Source of the DNA: Methanoculleus thermophilus
GTDB lineage: Archaea > Halobacteriota > Methanomicrobia > Methanomicrobiales > Methanoculleaceae
Assembly: GCF_001571405.1 (NCBI RefSeq)
Contig: NZ_BCNX01000004.1
Span: 186,001-250,000 of the forward strand
Direction: 5' to 3'
Length of the DNA stretch: 64,000 nucleotides
This document shows, one piece after another, positions 54,370 to 63,859 of the stretch. Below the pieces are notes generated by a model. It saw only the letters and a program-made list of their open reading frames with translations, was not told where the DNA came from and searched no databases. Every line of letters begins with the position of its first letter. Position 1 is the stretch's first letter. Made by a program: the position numbers and the translations under genes.

Positions 54370-55626
54370 TTGCGAACGTTAGGGTCCGGCGGGAGGGCGC
54401 CCCCCGCCTTCCACGTCATGGCGAAACCGGCCGGGGCACGGTGCAACCTCGACTGTGCCTACTGTTTTTACAAAGAGAAGAAAGGACTGTACCCGGACGG
54501 CACCTTCAGGATGACCGATAAGGTGATGGAGGAGTACATCCGCCAGACCATCGCGGGGCACACCGTGCCGGAGGTGACGTTCGCCTGGCAGGGGGGAGAG
54601 CCGACCCTGATGGGACTTCCGTTCTTTCGGCGGGCGGTGGCGGTCCAGAAGAAGTATGCCGGGCCGAAAACCCGCATCGAGAACACCTTCCAGACGAACG
54701 GCCTCCTCCTTGACGATAAGTGGTGCCGGTTCTTCCGCGAGAACAGGTTCCTCGTCGGCCTCTCGATGGACGGCCCCCGCGACCTCCATGACGCCTACCG
54801 GCGGGACCGACAGGGCTGCGGCACGTTCGACCGGGTCGAGAAAGCCGCCCTTCTCCTCCAGAAGCACCGGGTCGCATTCAACATCCTCTGTGCGGTCACG
54901 AGCACGAATGCCGATCATCCCCAGGAGGTCTACCGGTTCTTCCGCGACGAACTCGGTGCACCCTACATCCAGTTCATCCCCATCGTCGAGCGTGAGGACG
55001 GGAGCAGAGTCTCCGACCGGTCCGTCCGGCCGGACCAGTGGGGCCGGTTCCTGATCGAGGTCTTTGATGAGTGGGTCAGGAGGGACGTCGGCCGGTTCTT
55101 CGTCCTGAACTTCGACTGGGCGCTCGCGGGCTGGCTCGGGATGGCAGGATCGGTCTGCGTCTTTGCCCCCACCTGCGGCCTTGGGGTGGCGCTCGAGCAT
55201 AACGGCGACCTCTACTCCTGCGACCACTTCGTCGAACCGGACCACCTCCTCGGCAACATCCTCGCAACACCGCTCGCTGAACTCGTAGCCTCCGAGAAAC
55301 AGCGGCGGTTCGGGGCGGCCAAGCGCGGGACGCTCCCCCGGCAGTGCCGGGAGTGCAGGTTCCTTTCCGTCTGCAACGGCGAGTGTCCAAAAAACCGGTT
55401 CGTCGATGGGGGCTTGAACTATCTCTGTGAAGGGTATCGGGCGTTCTTCTCCCACGCCGACCGCCCGATGCGGATGATGGCCGGCCTGCTCCGGCGGGGG
55501 CGGCCCGCGGGCGAGGTGATGCCGATGCTCGCGGCAAAGGTGGGGCGGAACGAGCCCTGTCCCTGCGGGAGCGGCCAGAAGTACAAAAGATGCTGTGGGA
55601 GAAGGGGGGCATTTAGTCCCGCTTGA
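54370..55626 (+). CDS. Anaerobic sulfatase-maturating enzyme with SEC-C domain
   Basis: A 418-residue radical SAM enzyme. Cys25, Cys29, Cys32 (CNLDCAYC) bind the SAM cluster, and a SPASM region holds seven further Cys (CGLGVALEHNGDLYSC, CRECRFLSVCNGECPKN) as in anSME. The end carries GRNEPCPCGSGQKYKRCCG, a SEC-C zinc motif, joined on. It turns the active-site Cys of a sulfatase into formylglycine without oxygen. The target lies next door: the sulfatase on the opposite strand has a CxPTR site, and the two genes overlap by 14 bp at their 3' ends. TTG 54370 keeps the full conserved N-terminus. Confidence 0.9.
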   Translation: MRTLGSGGRAPPAFHVMAKPAGARCNLDCAYCFYKEKKGLYPDGTFRMTDKVMEEYIRQTIAGHTVPEVTFAWQGGEPTLMGLPFFRRAVAVQKKYAGPKTRIENTFQTNGLLLDDKWCRFFRENRFLVGLSMDGPRDLHDAYRRDRQGCGTFDRVEKAALLLQKHRVAFNILCAVTSTNADHPQEVYRFFRDELGAPYIQFIPIVEREDGSRVSDRSVRPDQWGRFLIEVFDEWVRRDVGRFFVLNFDWALAGWLGMAGSVCVFAPTCGLGVALEHNGDLYSCDHFVEPDHLLGNILATPLAELVASEKQRRFGAAKRGTLPRQCRECRFLSVCNGECPKNRFVDGGLNYLCEGYRAFFSHADRPMRMMAGLLRRGRPAGEVMPMLAAKVGRNEPCPCGSGQKYKRCCGRRGAFSPA

Positions 55627-57961
55627 TCCAGGCAGCAACCTCCTTCTCATGGTCGACATAGCGCTCGCCGCTGACATCGATCACCACCCGCTCGATGGTC
55701 CCGCCCGTAAAGGCGAAGGGTGCGGCATAGTCCGGCGATACTGGCGACCCGCTGTCCCGGCCGACGCAGAGCCCGTCGCCGGTGAGGCCGAAGTATCCGG
55801 GCTGGGTCATGATCCGTCCCTCCCCCACCTTCTTCATGTCTATGTAGAGTGTGAGAGTGCCCGTGGCGCTCCCGGTATCAGGTTCGACACCGTCCTTTGT
55901 AAACTCCGCCGTGAAGACGTGCCGGCCGGCGGGGACGGTGCTGCTTGAGGAGATCTTCTGGATCACGTCCCCGAGCCAGTTGTAGACGTAGTGCAGTCGC
56001 CCATCGGCAATGTAGAGGCTATGCCCGCCCCCGACACCCCCGTGGGCAAAGAGCACTCCCTGCGCTTCCGGCCCGTCGATGACGGCGCCGGCCGCGATCG
56101 CATACGACCGCCCCCTAATACTGACCGCCACCGACTCGGGAACCTCGGCGGTATTGGGATAGTAGACGTAGCGGTTCCTGGGCCTGGATGGCTGGGGGCG
56201 CGGTGTCGAGATAAGCTCCAGTGCATTGCGGTCATCAATCGGCATACCGTTGTAAACCCCTGCATAGTAGAACCAGAGCCCCTTGAGGAGCTCAAGCACG
56301 TCTCTTTTTTCGTCCGCAAGGTTCTGCGTCTGGGTCCGGTCTTCTTTTAGGTTGTAGAGTTCCCAGACGTCGTGCTCGTAGTTGCCCCAGCCCGAGAGGG
56401 GCGGATGGACGGTGCATGCAAGCCAGCCCTGGTGGTAGATCGCCCGCTGGCCGAGCATCGCGTAGAACTGGGTCTCCCGTCCGGGGGCATCGGGGTCATC
56501 AAAGGTGGCCCTGAAACTCTCCCCCTCGATCGGGCTCTGGGTATAGCCCTTCAGCACCTCCGGCGGCTCGATCCCCAGCAGGTCGTAGAGCGTCGGGACG
56601 ATGTCCACGGCGTGGATGTACTGGTGGCGTATCTCTCCTTGGGCGCTGATGCCCCGGGGCCACGCAATCAGGCACATATCCGCAATGCCGCCTTCGTACC
56701 CGGCAAACCGCTTCCAGTAGGGGAACGGGGTGTCGAACGCCCACGCCCAGCCGGTGCAGTAGTGGTTGTACGCCCTGGGGCCGCCGAGCTCGTCGATGTG
56801 CGGCAGGTTTGCCTCGACTGTGTCGGGGACGTTGTTGAAGAACTTGTTCTCGTTGAAGGAGCCGCTTGGACCGCCCTCGGCGCTGGAACCGTTGTCGGAT
56901 ACGACGACGATGATGGTGTTCTCAAACTGCCCGGACTCCTCGAGATAGTCGAGGATCCGCCCAATTTGAGCGTCGGTGTAGGTGACATAGCCGGCAAAAA
57001 CCTCTGCCATGCGGATAAAGAGCCTCTTTTCGTCCTCGGAGAGCGAGTCCCAGGGCGGCACGAAGTCGAGAGCCGGCCACGGCTGGCCGTCCGGCCCGGT
57101 CGTTCCCGGCTCGCCGTGGGGATTGATGGGGGAGAGCCGGGTGTTTTCCGGGAGCAATCCCATCTTCTTTTGGTTCTCGAGGATCTGCTCACGGATCTTC
57201 TCGTAGCCCATATCGAACCGGCCTTTGTAGCGGTCGGCCCATTCCTTGAAGACGTGGTGCGGGGCATGGGCGCAGCCGGGGCAGAAGTACATGAACCAGG
57301 GTTTTTCGGGGGCAATCACCTTCGCGTCGCGGATGAACTCGATCGCTTTATCGGCGATATCCCTGGAGAAGTGGTAGCCGTCTTCCGGGCGGTAGGGCTG
57401 GTCTATCGGGTGGTTGTCGTAGACGAGGTCGGGGTACCACTGGTTGGTCTCCCCGCCGAGGAACCCGTAGTAGCGCTCGAACCCCCGCCCGAGCGGCCAG
57501 CGCCCCTTCCACGAGGACATATCGGTCTCCTCGGCCGGGGTCAGGTGCCACTTGCCGATGGCGTAGGTGTTGTAGCCCCGCTCGTTCAACACTTCCGAGA
57601 TAAACCCGTTCTCGAACGGAATACGGGCGGATAACCCCGGAAAACCGGCGGACGCCTCGGTGATGCAGGCCATGTTGTTGCTGGTTGCGTTGCGCCCGGT
57701 CAGCAGGCTCGACCGGGTGGGCGAACAGAGCGCCGTGGTGTGGAAGTTGCTGTAGCGTATGCCCATATCGGCGATGCGCCGCATTGTGGGCGTCTCGATA
57801 GGGCCGCCGAATACGTCCATAGCCCCGTAGCCGACGTCGTCCCAGACGATCATCAGGATGTTTGGGGCATCCGCCGGCGCCTGCGGCTGCAGGTAGGGGC
57901 CCCAGTCTGGCACGGAATCCCGGATATCGAGATTGGCCGTGCCCTTCCAGCTCTTGGACAT
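55613..57961 (-). CDS. Arylsulfatase-type sulfatase (cytosolic, formylglycine-dependent)
   Basis: The 782-residue type I sulfatase has metal-binding VWDDVGYG (Asp41, Asp42), the formylglycine site CSPTRSSLLTGR with Cys79, GKWHLTP, a C-terminal VVSDNGSSAEGG and the late HDVWELYNLKED. Residues about 605-780 form a C-terminal beta domain (YVYYPNTAEVPESVAV...). There is no signal peptide, so it acts in the cytoplasm. It hydrolyses sulfate esters; the substrate is unknown. Its likely maturase (anSME) is the convergent gene. A sulfatase/anSME pair is uncommon in methanogens. Confidence 0.93.
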   Translation of the reverse strand: MSKSWKGTANLDIRDSVPDWGPYLQPQAPADAPNILMIVWDDVGYGAMDVFGGPIETPTMRRIADMGIRYSNFHTTALCSPTRSSLLTGRNATSNNMACITEASAGFPGLSARIPFENGFISEVLNERGYNTYAIGKWHLTPAEETDMSSWKGRWPLGRGFERYYGFLGGETNQWYPDLVYDNHPIDQPYRPEDGYHFSRDIADKAIEFIRDAKVIAPEKPWFMYFCPGCAHAPHHVFKEWADRYKGRFDMGYEKIREQILENQKKMGLLPENTRLSPINPHGEPGTTGPDGQPWPALDFVPPWDSLSEDEKRLFIRMAEVFAGYVTYTDAQIGRILDYLEESGQFENTIIVVVSDNGSSAEGGPSGSFNENKFFNNVPDTVEANLPHIDELGGPRAYNHYCTGWAWAFDTPFPYWKRFAGYEGGIADMCLIAWPRGISAQGEIRHQYIHAVDIVPTLYDLLGIEPPEVLKGYTQSPIEGESFRATFDDPDAPGRETQFYAMLGQRAIYHQGWLACTVHPPLSGWGNYEHDVWELYNLKEDRTQTQNLADEKRDVLELLKGLWFYYAGVYNGMPIDDRNALELISTPRPQPSRPRNRYVYYPNTAEVPESVAVSIRGRSYAIAAGAVIDGPEAQGVLFAHGGVGGGHSLYIADGRLHYVYNWLGDVIQKISSSSTVPAGRHVFTAEFTKDGVEPDTGSATGTLTLYIDMKKVGEGRIMTQPGYFGLTGDGLCVGRDSGSPVSPDYAAPFAFTGGTIERVVIDVSGERYVDHEKEVAAWIKRD

Positions 57962-58192
57962 CTTGCACTCTCCATGCTGTGAGCGCCGTCTTGGGTGCCA
58001 TCACGGATTAATCACTTTCGATGCCCGGATCCGGGGGTCGCAACCGGGCCGGCAGCGCCCCGATAACCGGACGGCTCCTGCTCGTTATGGCGGGATCTGC
58101 CATTCTGGGGCGCATAACCGCAGACCTGCACTGCGCAGTAACCATAATGTGTGAGCAGTGTGATTGGCGACGGCAGCCTGTGGGTGATGTCC
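57962..58192. other. Intergenic region between sulfatase and LURP-like gene
   Basis: About 230 bp. No gene and no clear promoter or hairpin was seen; the region probably holds the divergent promoters of both genes. Confidence 0.3.
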
Positions 58193-58729
58193 ATGTTGCG
58201 AAGGAGAGCGGAAGGCGGTCTAGCGCGGCGTAAAGAGGCCGGCGGGGCGCACCGGTATAAGATGCGCGAGAAACTCGTCTCCATCGGGGACGACTACTGG
58301 ATCGAGGATCATGACGGAAACAAGGCGTTCAAGGTGGACGGAAAAGCCCTCCGGGCGAGGAACACCCTGATCATCCAGAGCAAGGAGGGGCAGGACCTTT
58401 ACAAGATCCAGGAGCGGATGCTCCGGGTCAAGGATACGATGGAGATCGAGAAGGGCGAAGGCGGCACGGCGGCGACTATCAAGAAGGCGATGATCGCGCC
58501 GCTCCGGGAGCGGTGGACGGTCAGCATTCCCGGAGAGGGCGACTGGGAGGTCCAGGGGAACATCCTCGATCACGAGTACCATATCGAGGCCGGGCGGCGG
58601 GAGCGGGTTGCCGAGGTCTCGAAGAAGTGGTTCCGGATCCGGGACACCTACGGCGTTGAGGTGGAGCCGGGGCACGACGATGCGCTCGTCCTCGCCGTGA
58701 CGGCGGCGATCGACCAGATGGCGCGGTGA
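58193..58729 (+). CDS. LURP1/tubby-like beta-barrel protein
   Basis: A 178-residue protein with a short basic N-terminus (RRRAEGGLARRKEAGG) and then the LOR/YxjI pattern: DYWIEDHDGNKAFKVDGKAL, LIIQSKEGQDLYKIQER, TVSIPGEGDWEVQGN, YHIEAGRRERVAEVSKKWF and DTYGVEVEPGHDDALVLAV. This is a 12-stranded barrel around a central helix, related to tubby-like phospholipid scramblases. It may bind lipid or nucleotide. ATG 58193 has GGTGA 6 nt upstream. It converges on the multidrug export gene. Confidence 0.85.
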   Translation: MLRRRAEGGLARRKEAGGAHRYKMREKLVSIGDDYWIEDHDGNKAFKVDGKALRARNTLIIQSKEGQDLYKIQERMLRVKDTMEIEKGEGGTAATIKKAMIAPLRERWTVSIPGEGDWEVQGNILDHEYHIEAGRRERVAEVSKKWFRIRDTYGVEVEPGHDDALVLAVTAAIDQMAR

Positions 58730-61111: not shown

Positions 61112-63007
61112 ATGAGTGCCGAGACCGGTTGGCCGGTGGGGGGACTGGGAGACCGGGCCCATACAGTATGGAGGGTGCTCTTTCTTGCTCTCCTTCTCGC
61201 GGCACTGGCAGGCACGGTCACCGCCGAGGACGATGCCATAGTCCAGGATCTTGCCGGACGCATCGAGCCCGGCCAGGCAATCGTCTACGATCTTGACCTG
61301 CAGGAGGGCTGGACCCTGTACGCCTATGCAAAGGGTTCCTCAGGAAACCTGGACCCGTTCCTCGCCGTCGCCCGCCCGGACCTCAACGCGAGCCGGGTAC
61401 GTACCGAGTTTGCAACCGACGTGACCCGCTCCCTGGCAGCGGGGCAGGACCCGTTCGAGGCGATCCCGGAGATCGCCGGCAGGTACTTCCTCGCCTGGAA
61501 CGACGATACGAACGGCACGTATGATTCCGCCCTGCAGTACCGCGTTCCCGCCGACGGCGACTATCTCCTGATCGTCATCGGTTCTCCGGCAAAACGCGGG
61601 CAGACCTTCGGGGACTACCGCCTTCTGGTCGGGATCGACGCGCCGCAGGTGCTGACCGGCCAGGCCGAGCCGACCGGAGCCGCCGTCGCGGTCCTGAATT
61701 CCTCCGCTTCAAGGCCGCGTGTCGGTGTCCGGGAGGTGACGGGGAATCTCTCTGTCAATAGCTCATCGACCTTCTACACCCTCGGCGGGGTAGAGGCGAA
61801 CGACACGTTCTATGCCTTCATCGAAGCGACATCCGGGGACCTGGTCCCGGCGATGATCCTCCGGGATTACGGCGGCAAACCCCTCGCAGCAGCGGCTTCC
61901 GTACCGGGGACGAGGAGTGCCGTGCTCCAGTACACGTTCTCCGGCGCCAGCAGCAACAACCGGCTGGAGGTGCTTGCAAGCCCGCTGAACGGGGCCAACA
62001 CGACGGGAGACTTCCGTCTGCTCGCCGGCTTAAACGCCCCCGGCGTGCTGGCGGGTACCGAACCGCCGGGGGGAGTCGCCGTCCTGCGGGAACCCATTCG
62101 GGTCAAAGTCGGCATCGAACTGGAGCAGATCACCAATGTGGACCAGGTCGGCGAGAACTTTGCCGTAGTGGCCAATATCTGGATGGAGTGGAACGATCCC
62201 GCTCTGGCGTTCAGTCCGGACGAATGCAACTGCCAACTCAAGATCTATCGGAGCGTCGATGATTTCGTCGATGCCGAGGGCTCACGGTGGCCGGAGTTCA
62301 CGCTCTACAACCAGCAGGCGCAGCGCTGGACGCAGAACCAGATCATTGTGGTGCAGCAGAGCGGCACCGCCACCTACTTCGAACACTTCTGGACGACCCT
62401 GCAGGCGCCGGACTTCAACTTCAGGGCTTACCCGTTCGATACCCAGGACTTCTTCATCCGCATCGACTCGCTCTACCCCGAAGAACTCTACGTCTACGAA
62501 CCCTGGCCGGAGAAGACCACCATAGGCACCCAGCTCGGGGAGGAGGAGTGGTACATCACCGCAAGCGAGACCAACATCAGCACGGTCGAGATCACGACCC
62601 GGAACTCGCGCTACTCCTTCTACTTCGAGGCGGCCCGCCACCTGACCTTCTACGTCCTTCGTATCCTGGTACCGATCCTGATCATCATTCTCCTGACCTA
62701 CGTTACGTTCCTTCTCAAAGACTACGGCAAACGGGCCGAGATTGCCAGCGCCAACCTGCTCCTCTTCATCGCGTTCAACTTCACCATCGCCGGAAGCCTG
62801 CCGCATCTTGGCTACCTCACGTTCCTCGATGCCGTCCTGGTCGCCACTTTCGTGATCACCGGCATCACGGTCGCCTACAATCTCTACCTGAGGTGGCTGG
62901 CGACGGAGAGGCAGAAGGAGATCGCGGATCGTATCGACCGGGTGATGGTCTGGCTCTACCCGGCCGCATACATCGCCGCGCTCGTTCTTGCCTCATTGCT
63001 GTTATGA
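61112..63007 (+). CDS. Pentameric ligand-gated ion channel with N-terminal double beta domain
   Basis: The 631-residue protein has a signal sequence (VLFLALLLAALAGTVTA). Residues about 40-165 and 195-320 form two related beta domains; each ends in a GDYRLLVG/GDFRLLAG-like repeat followed by NAP or DAP and a linker. From about residue 325 comes the channel: extracellular beta-sandwich with REPIRVKVGIELEQI, NIWMEWND and the signature FRAYPFDTQDF, then four membrane helices M1 (VLRILVPILIIILLTYVTF), M2 (SANLLLFIAFNFTIAG), M3 and M4. The Pro-Phe-Asp turn replaces the eukaryotic Cys loop, as in prokaryotic members. A ligand is unknown. Such channels have only occasionally been noticed in archaea. 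Confidence 0.88.
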   Translation: MSAETGWPVGGLGDRAHTVWRVLFLALLLAALAGTVTAEDDAIVQDLAGRIEPGQAIVYDLDLQEGWTLYAYAKGSSGNLDPFLAVARPDLNASRVRTEFATDVTRSLAAGQDPFEAIPEIAGRYFLAWNDDTNGTYDSALQYRVPADGDYLLIVIGSPAKRGQTFGDYRLLVGIDAPQVLTGQAEPTGAAVAVLNSSASRPRVGVREVTGNLSVNSSSTFYTLGGVEANDTFYAFIEATSGDLVPAMILRDYGGKPLAAAASVPGTRSAVLQYTFSGASSNNRLEVLASPLNGANTTGDFRLLAGLNAPGVLAGTEPPGGVAVLREPIRVKVGIELEQITNVDQVGENFAVVANIWMEWNDPALAFSPDECNCQLKIYRSVDDFVDAEGSRWPEFTLYNQQAQRWTQNQIIVVQQSGTATYFEHFWTTLQAPDFNFRAYPFDTQDFFIRIDSLYPEELYVYEPWPEKTTIGTQLGEEEWYITASETNISTVEITTRNSRYSFYFEAARHLTFYVLRILVPILIIILLTYVTFLLKDYGKRAEIASANLLLFIAFNFTIAGSLPHLGYLTFLDAVLVATFVITGITVAYNLYLRWLATERQKEIADRIDRVMVWLYPAAYIAALVLASLLL

Positions 63008-63126: not shown

Positions 63127-63143
63127 CATATATTTTTATATAA
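63127..63143 (+). promoter_or_regulatory. TATA-rich promoter of DUF6325 paralogue
   Basis: ATATATTTTTATATAA contains overlapping TATA boxes. A start near 63170 would leave a 125-nt leader before ATG 63296. Confidence 0.5.
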
Positions 63144-63295
63144 TGTCGCTCATTTGGTCTTGGCCCGCCTCAGGTGTGCACATTTTCAGGAAGATGAGAC
63201 GTTCGCAGGCAGAGTTGCCCGGATTCGTATTCCGGCACGGTGACAATCGGGTGCGGGCAGGCAATCTATGCATCTATCATAGGAGGAATGGAAGA

Positions 63296-63859
63296 ATGGC
63301 TGAAGTGATGTATGGGCCGATGCAGCTCCTGGTCATCGGATTCAAGAACCCTGACTTCCACGGCCAGATCCGGCAGGCGTTCGGGTCAGCTATGAAAGCG
63401 GGTGTCATCAGACTGATTGATCTCCGGTTCGTCTGGAAGGATGCGGACGGAAACGTCGAGGGTATGGAGGCCACACAGCTCAGTGATGAGGAGCGGCAGC
63501 GTTTCGGCTCCGTCGTCGGCGCGCTCATCGGCCTTGGCGCCGCCGGTGAGGAAGGGGCACGGGAAGGTGCGGAAGCCGGCGCTACGGCGGCCGCCCGGCG
63601 GACCTTCGGTATGACCGAGGATGATCTCCGCTCAATTGCGGATACTATCCCGAACGACAGCGCTGCCGCGATCTTCCTCATCGAGCACCTCTGGGCGAAG
63701 GAACTCAAGCAGGCGCTCCGCGATGCCAACGGCTATGTTATCTCACAGGGCCTGGTCACGCCGGAAGCCCTCGTGCTCGCCGGCGCGGCGCTTGATAAAG
63801 CGCTCGAGACTGCGGCATCGGGAGAGCAGAAAGAACCGATGGCGGCGCCGGCACGCTGA
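63296..63859 (+). CDS. DUF6325 family protein with Gly/Ala-rich insert
   Basis: The 187-residue protein begins YGPMQLLVIGFKNPDFHGQI, then GVIRLIDLRFVWKDADGNVEG, and near the end SAAAIFLIEHLWAKELKQAL, as in the paralogue at 47864-48313. Between them lies an insert rich in Gly and Ala (GALIGLGAAGEEGAREGAEA) that could be a membrane-active or flexible segment. A strong AGGAGG site precedes the ATG. A coupled SHOCT gene, as found downstream of its paralogue, is absent here. Confidence 0.78.
   Translation: MAEVMYGPMQLLVIGFKNPDFHGQIRQAFGSAMKAGVIRLIDLRFVWKDADGNVEGMEATQLSDEERQRFGSVVGALIGLGAAGEEGAREGAEAGATAAARRTFGMTEDDLRSIADTIPNDSAAAIFLIEHLWAKELKQALRDANGYVISQGLVTPEALVLAGAALDKALETAASGEQKEPMAAPAR

Follow-up and report, generated by a model that had tools for sequence, protein, structure and literature searches.

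The gene at 61112-63007 of the window, the 64,000-nucleotide stretch of Methanoculleus thermophilus DNA that was analysed, encodes a full-length archaeal homologue, and orthologue, of DeCLIC, a bacterial pentameric ligand-gated ion channel (pLGIC) with a solved structure that includes its N-terminal domain. The two proteins are alike in domain order, fold, calcium ligands and pore residues. By analogy with DeCLIC in the matter of gating, this orthologue would form a cation channel that external Ca2+ holds shut and that opens when Ca2+ falls, a reading given a probability of roughly 0.72. The novelty is small, consisting of archaeal orthologues of a model channel and not of a new kind of protein.

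A full-length archaeal orthologue of DeCLIC

The reading frame runs for 631 codons plus a stop, and its translation shows no frameshift. Congeneric orthologues in Methanoculleus are 80-90% identical to it along the entire channel, and its ATG start at 61112 is common to UBA77 and other congeners. The reading frame is thus confirmed as real, and a chance origin is excluded. The gene is part of contig 4 in a genome of 2.2 Mb that is 99.5% complete and has no second copy of the channel; the closest channel-bearing relatives of this genome are named Methanoculleus. The N-terminus resembles a signal peptide whose helix is also present in the AF2 model, with cleavage predicted at its A-x-A-like end (Table 1). 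In Methanoculleus SpSt-1212 the channel (L040, 5935-7706) falls into two frames that break at the border between the N-terminal and extracellular domains, at query residues 319-321, which is either an assembly error or a real split.

Identification of the protein is based on sequence, profile and structure searches. Among PDB sequences, DeCLIC is the top phmmer match (E=1.3e-121, residues 19-624 of 631), and a profile built from 20 sequences matches it with E=2.3e-193. The AF2 model, a monomer with mean pLDDT 81 and pTM 0.69, combines a beta-rich extracellular domain (ECD) with four transmembrane helices at residues 511-534, 538-560, 571-596 and 599-630. The first 20 Foldseek matches of this model are all DeCLIC, with E-values down to 2.5e-56 over 601 columns; most cover about 600 columns at 35% identity. 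Superposition on 6v4a gives a VIA Z of 29.1 over 568 residues with an rmsd of about 6 A, a deviation that probably reflects domain placement in the monomer model.

Membership of the nicotinic-receptor superfamily, proposed in the earlier note, is borne out by these matches, by the four helices and by the Pfam family Neur_chan_LBD (PF02931), found at residues 326-515 with E=2.4e-13, above the curated cut-off. The motif FRAYPFDTQDF, cited there as a hallmark, is indeed located just ahead of the transmembrane region. In the Pro loop at the junction of the ECD and the transmembrane domain (TMD), P433 and F435 are invariant in the 20-sequence alignment. The disulfide pair of animal Cys-loop receptors is absent, as no cysteine lies in or near the Pro loop and the ECD has no cysteines other than C372 and C374. 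The M2 pore lining, the loss of which had been named as grounds for refutation, is kept (E543, L550, F557). Across the alignment of related sequences, Leu at 9' and Phe at 16' occur in all, and the 2' residue is acidic in all except two distant outgroup rows, which have Lys.

The part of the protein that had appeared to be an addition is the tandem N-terminal domain (NTD). Its roughly 285 residues in the mature protein fold into two beta domains, NTD1 and NTD2, whose kinship, already suspected in the earlier note, is clear from their mutual alignment (residues 41-190 against 191-325; hhalign probability 99.6%, E 5e-24) and from a common signature near each C-terminus, G-D-Y/F-R-L-L-x-G-x-x-A-P-x-V-L-x-G. 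The earlier note had regarded the domain as an extra not needed for the basic channel and had named DeCLIC only among structures for comparison; the domain is present, but it is no unexplained addition, being identified as NTD1 and NTD2 of DeCLIC because sequence, profile and structure searches all lead there. Residues 1-323 alone match DeCLIC with E=5e-34 and the isolated NTD1 entry 6v4b with E=2e-22 (phmmer). A two-lobe model of the NTD, built separately and alignment-free (pLDDT 67), superposes on 6v4b with a VIA Z of 14.4 and an rmsd of 2.3, followed by Tk-SP (Z 11.6), the collagen-binding domain of ColH (Z 11.2) and PliG (Z 10.0); the same kinds of fold relatives were reported by the DeCLIC authors. 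The nearest Pfam family is PPC (PF04151), detected in 6 of the 20 relatives (best E 2.7e-5) and not in the Methanoculleus protein itself.

Several other interpretations of the domain were considered and set aside. A new domain architecture is ruled out by the full-length DeCLIC match, which holds in phmmer, with the N-terminal half alone and in Foldseek. Sensory domains of the Cache, MCP or PBP kind gave no Pfam match at E<=10 among the 20 relatives. A remnant of NTD2 hinted at by a tblastn range in a Desulfobulbaceae relative (L052) was not upheld, there being no NTD sequence visible at that place.

Table 1. Positions of the channel gene and its features in the window
Feature	Positions	Strand	Basis or remarks
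DeCLIC-type pentameric ligand-gated ion channel subunit	61112..63007	+	631 aa
N-terminal signal peptide (predicted), residues ~1-39	61112..61228	+	Arg-rich start, hydrophobic helix 14-34, A-x-A-like end TVTA/EDD
NTD1, residues ~41-190	61232..61681	+	PPC-like jelly roll with helical insert; holds putative Ca2+ Site 1
Asp81-Pro82 (DeCLIC Asp76-Pro77), putative Ca2+ Site 1	61352..61357	+	invariant in 20 sequences
Asp131-Asp132 (DeCLIC Asp123-Asp124), putative Ca2+ Site 1	61502..61507	+	alignment, conservation
Asn134-Gly-Thr136, putative N-glycosylation sequon	61511..61519	+	replaces glycines of DeCLIC Site 2 loop
NTD2, residues ~191-325	61682..62086	+	second jelly roll without Asp-Asp calcium motif
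Extracellular ligand-binding domain, residues ~326-510	62087..62641	+	PF02931; 42% identity to DeCLIC
Glu348 (DeCLIC Glu347), putative Ca2+ Site 3, beta1-beta2 loop	62153..62155	+	alignment
Loop F QLGEEE, residues 474-479 (DeCLIC 476-481), putative Ca2+ Sites 3/4	62531..62548	+	alignment, conservation
Transmembrane domain M1-M4, residues ~511-631	62642..63004	+	44% identity to DeCLIC; four modelled helices
M2 pore helix, residues 538-560	62723..62791	+	Glu543 2', Leu550 9', Phe557 16'

Calcium-site residues and the proposed gating

Four Ca2+ sites have been proposed in DeCLIC (PMC12664993; PMC9897478). Its residues 14-628 were rebuilt from the printed alignment, and the residue numbers used in the papers proved to match the letters given there. 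Every acidic Ca2+ ligand named for DeCLIC is conserved in the Methanoculleus protein, and the DeCLIC-subfamily ligands of Sites 1 and 3 (D76, D123 and D124; E347, P434, F436 and L477) are all identical. Besides the residues listed in Table 1, the alignment pairs Y129 of Site 1 with Y137, P434, F436 and L477 with P433, F435 and L475, and Q476, G478 and E480 with Q474, G476 and E478, each without change. Among the mapped positions, mismatches are confined to the glycines of Site 2, which contribute only their backbone and are replaced by N134 and T136 in the clade of the Methanoculleus protein.

Conservation was assessed by hypergeometric tests in 20 full-length sequences, the other members being 40-87% identical to the Methanoculleus protein. 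In NTD1, the five Site 1 positions all rank by conservation within the top 21 of 150 columns (P=3e-5); in the ECD, the seven mapped positions all rank within the top 68 of 185 (P=7e-4). Sequence conservation across archaea and bacteria singles out Sites 1 and 3, along with the part of Site 4 that lies in loop F, as being under selection, and does not single out the Site 2 glycines. The earlier view that the signals of such channels are unknown is too strong, since the conserved sites point to Ca2+.

DeCLIC is described, with reference to Hu et al. 2020, as inhibited by Ca2+ and conducting cations upon Ca2+ depletion. By analogy, five subunits would assemble in the cytoplasmic membrane, with NTD and ECD projecting into the space beneath the S-layer. 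High outside Ca2+ would clamp the NTD1/NTD2' interface through Site 1 and, in addition, the ECD subunit interface, linking the beta1-beta2 loop to loop F through Site 3; with both interfaces clamped, two gates, the 9' Leu and the 16' Phe, would keep the pore closed. A fall in Ca2+ would loosen the interfaces, allowing M2 to open and cations to pass, with the acidic 2' ring as the selectivity filter. The NTD is expected to adjust the speed of gating and not to act as the sole sensor, because sister channels of the sTeLIC type, which are devoid of it, keep the ECD calcium residues. For the same reason, the ECD site is not tied to the NTD.

Some observations count against Ca2+ gating. NTD identity to DeCLIC is just 27-31%, the branch leading to DeCLIC in the tree is long, and the Site 2 glycines are replaced. 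In two papers, Ca2+-free cryo-EM structures of DeCLIC are still closed, and the Foldseek match list includes DeCLIC entries titled as open at pH 5, even with 10 mM Ca2+. This suggests that pH may outweigh Ca2+ even in DeCLIC itself, and makes pH the strongest rival trigger. On that account, the same channel would be gated mainly by protons, or by a small organic ligand of the ECD, and Ca2+ would merely stabilise the fold. Structural relatives are gated in comparable fashion, GLIC by protons and sTeLIC by alkaline pH according to PDB entry titles, and the DeCLIC entries titled open at pH 5 include 9fth and 9fti. The account is nevertheless judged unlikely, as the Ca2+ ligands are among the most conserved positions of the ectodomain.

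Sequons, gene neighbourhood and distribution

The substitution at Site 2 creates the sequon N134-G-T136, which is common to 10 sequences of the Methanoculleus clade. Archaeal ectodomains carry on average 6.9 N-X-S/T motifs, compared with 2.8 in shuffled sequences and 1.3 in bacterial orthologues. Much of this excess is attributable to local clustering of Asn, Ser and Thr, because the reversed motif S/T-X-N is almost equally raised (6.4 vs 2.4). Specific sequon enrichment was accordingly rejected as a finding, since this control removes most of the specificity, and is kept as a lead. The M. thermophilus genome encodes an STT3-family oligosaccharyltransferase. It is very doubtful that these channels represent a methanogen-specific branch of DeCLIC with an N-glycosylated NTD, in which Site 2 was traded for a glycan at N134-G-T136 and external Ca2+ and surface glycosylation are both coupled to ion flow.

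The genes flanking the channel, a sugar porter upstream and a DUF1269 gene downstream, are not generally conserved. The DUF1269 protein (63143-63859, E=4e-7) follows the channel directly, and an internal ATG may be its true start. In seven Methanoculleus genomes, a paralogue of the AI-2E transporter family (L080, 7027-8121) lies directly upstream of the channel on the same strand, but not in M. thermophilus, G013 or G016. This paralogue, defined at >=72% identity, occurs in nine genomes, eight of which have the channel, and is missing from that of M. thermophilus. Given that neighbours are not generally conserved and that the transporter is absent from this place in three genomes, no operon partner is claimed.

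Further upstream, a sulfatase with the Cys-type active-site motif LCSPTR (55613-57961, minus strand) adjoins a radical-SAM/SPASM protein with a SEC-C motif (54370-55626, plus strand), which may serve as its anaerobic maturase. In G043 and G059, members of both families again lie near the channel; in G013 and FWC-SCC1 this holds for the sulfatase. Another gene of this region (58151-58729) encodes a LURP-one-related (LOR) domain protein (E=6e-20), here in an archaeon.

The sulfatase bears on the idea that the NTD binds a surface polymer or S-layer glycan as its receptor, through which the channel would report the state of the envelope. The NTD fold matches the collagen-binding domain of ColH and PliG, published abstracts describe polymer binding by the PPC and collagen-binding domains of secreted enzymes, and the 11 kb or so upstream of the channel include the sulfatase and a glycoside-hydrolase-like gene. 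However, no such conserved gene adjoins the channel in bacteria or in most archaea, the best-conserved NTD1 positions include the Ca2+ ligands, and no separate binding patch can be defined. This role is regarded as very unlikely, while the evidence speaks neither for nor against the cell-wall component that the earlier note proposed as a ligand.

The calcium-gated orthologue remains the preferred reading, and its distribution was surveyed by counting matches with E below 1e-100 as DeCLIC-type. Such channels occur in 10 of 35 Methanoculleus genomes and in 18 of 393 genomes of the host's archaeal phylum. In three sampled bacterial phyla, with each count including the seed genome itself, the figures are 1 of 400 (Chloroflexota seed), 2 of 395 (Desulfobacca seed) and 1 of 246 (Nitrospiraceae seed). 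By these samples, DeCLIC orthologues are much commoner in Methanomicrobiales than in the bacterial phyla. The patchy occurrence among congeners and one decayed NTD1-like fragment in another genus might suggest a non-functional remnant or passenger gene, which is most implausible in view of the intact frame and of site and pore residues that persist even in relatives with an overall identity of 40%. The fragment itself (L020, 1399-1743) belongs to genome G043, which also has an intact channel, and probably represents a second copy that has become a pseudogene.

In the tree, 25 archaeal sequences form one clade with support of 100/100, and two further archaeal sequences stand apart among bacterial ones. 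The AU test rejects neither a single clade nor a single origin of the archaeal sequences (p=0.44), and the tree, which has no settled root, does not show which way a transfer between the two domains would have gone. One Methanoculleus genome (G017) has two diverged DeCLIC-type channels (L010 and L018, 80% and 68% identical to the M. thermophilus protein), which could form a hetero-pentamer or serve two roles. Other Methanomicrobiales encode short, distant pLGICs of about 345 aa without an NTD (L016, L017, L019), so the order has at least two pLGIC types.

The earlier description of these channels as rare in archaea needs qualifying in the light of the 10 Methanoculleus genomes and of previous reports. 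The Methanosarcina pLGICs, which carry MCP-N and Cache domains, were described by Tasneem et al. 2005 (PMC549065), and a paper of 2016 (PMC4795631) added pLGICs from another ten genera of archaea. No report of the DeCLIC architecture in archaea was found in the main texts of open-licence papers. DeCLIC itself comes from a bacterial symbiont, and the physiological setting in which it works has been little characterised. Methanomicrobiales include cultivated members and thus offer natural hosts in which to test the role of a calcium-sensing pLGIC, and the archaeal orthologues provide a diverse sequence set to draw on in structural studies of the flexible NTD.

Comparison with known channels

DeCLIC, the channel of a Desulfofustis deltaproteobacterium (PDB 6v4a, 6v4s, 7q3g/h, 9ev1-9eva and 9ftg-j), shares with the Methanoculleus protein the order NTD1-NTD2-ECD-TMD after a signal peptide and the same pore residues, Glu at 2', Leu at 9' and Phe at 16'. 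Identity rises from 31% in NTD1 and 27% in NTD2 to 42% in the ECD and 44% in the TMD. The Methanoculleus channel differs in its archaeal host, in a vestibule Gln404 in place of N405, and in an ectodomain with more Asn-X-Ser/Thr sites.

sTeLIC (PDB 6fl9) has a homologous ECD and TMD (E=2e-78, about 40% identity), with the same Glu and the EEE of loop F; it lacks the N-terminal domain and has Asp in place of the vestibule Trp. GLIC has the pLGIC core fold in common at about 24% identity, is without an NTD and is gated by protons. The 2' residue of GLIC is neutral (Thr). The Methanosarcina pLGICs are likewise archaeal and bear two extra N-terminal domains, but these are of the MCP-N and Cache kinds, whereas the Methanoculleus channel has a PPC-like jelly-roll pair instead. 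The PPC and collagen-binding domains of Tk-SP and ColH correspond in fold to one NTD lobe; they belong to secreted proteases, whereas the Methanoculleus NTD is part of a channel.
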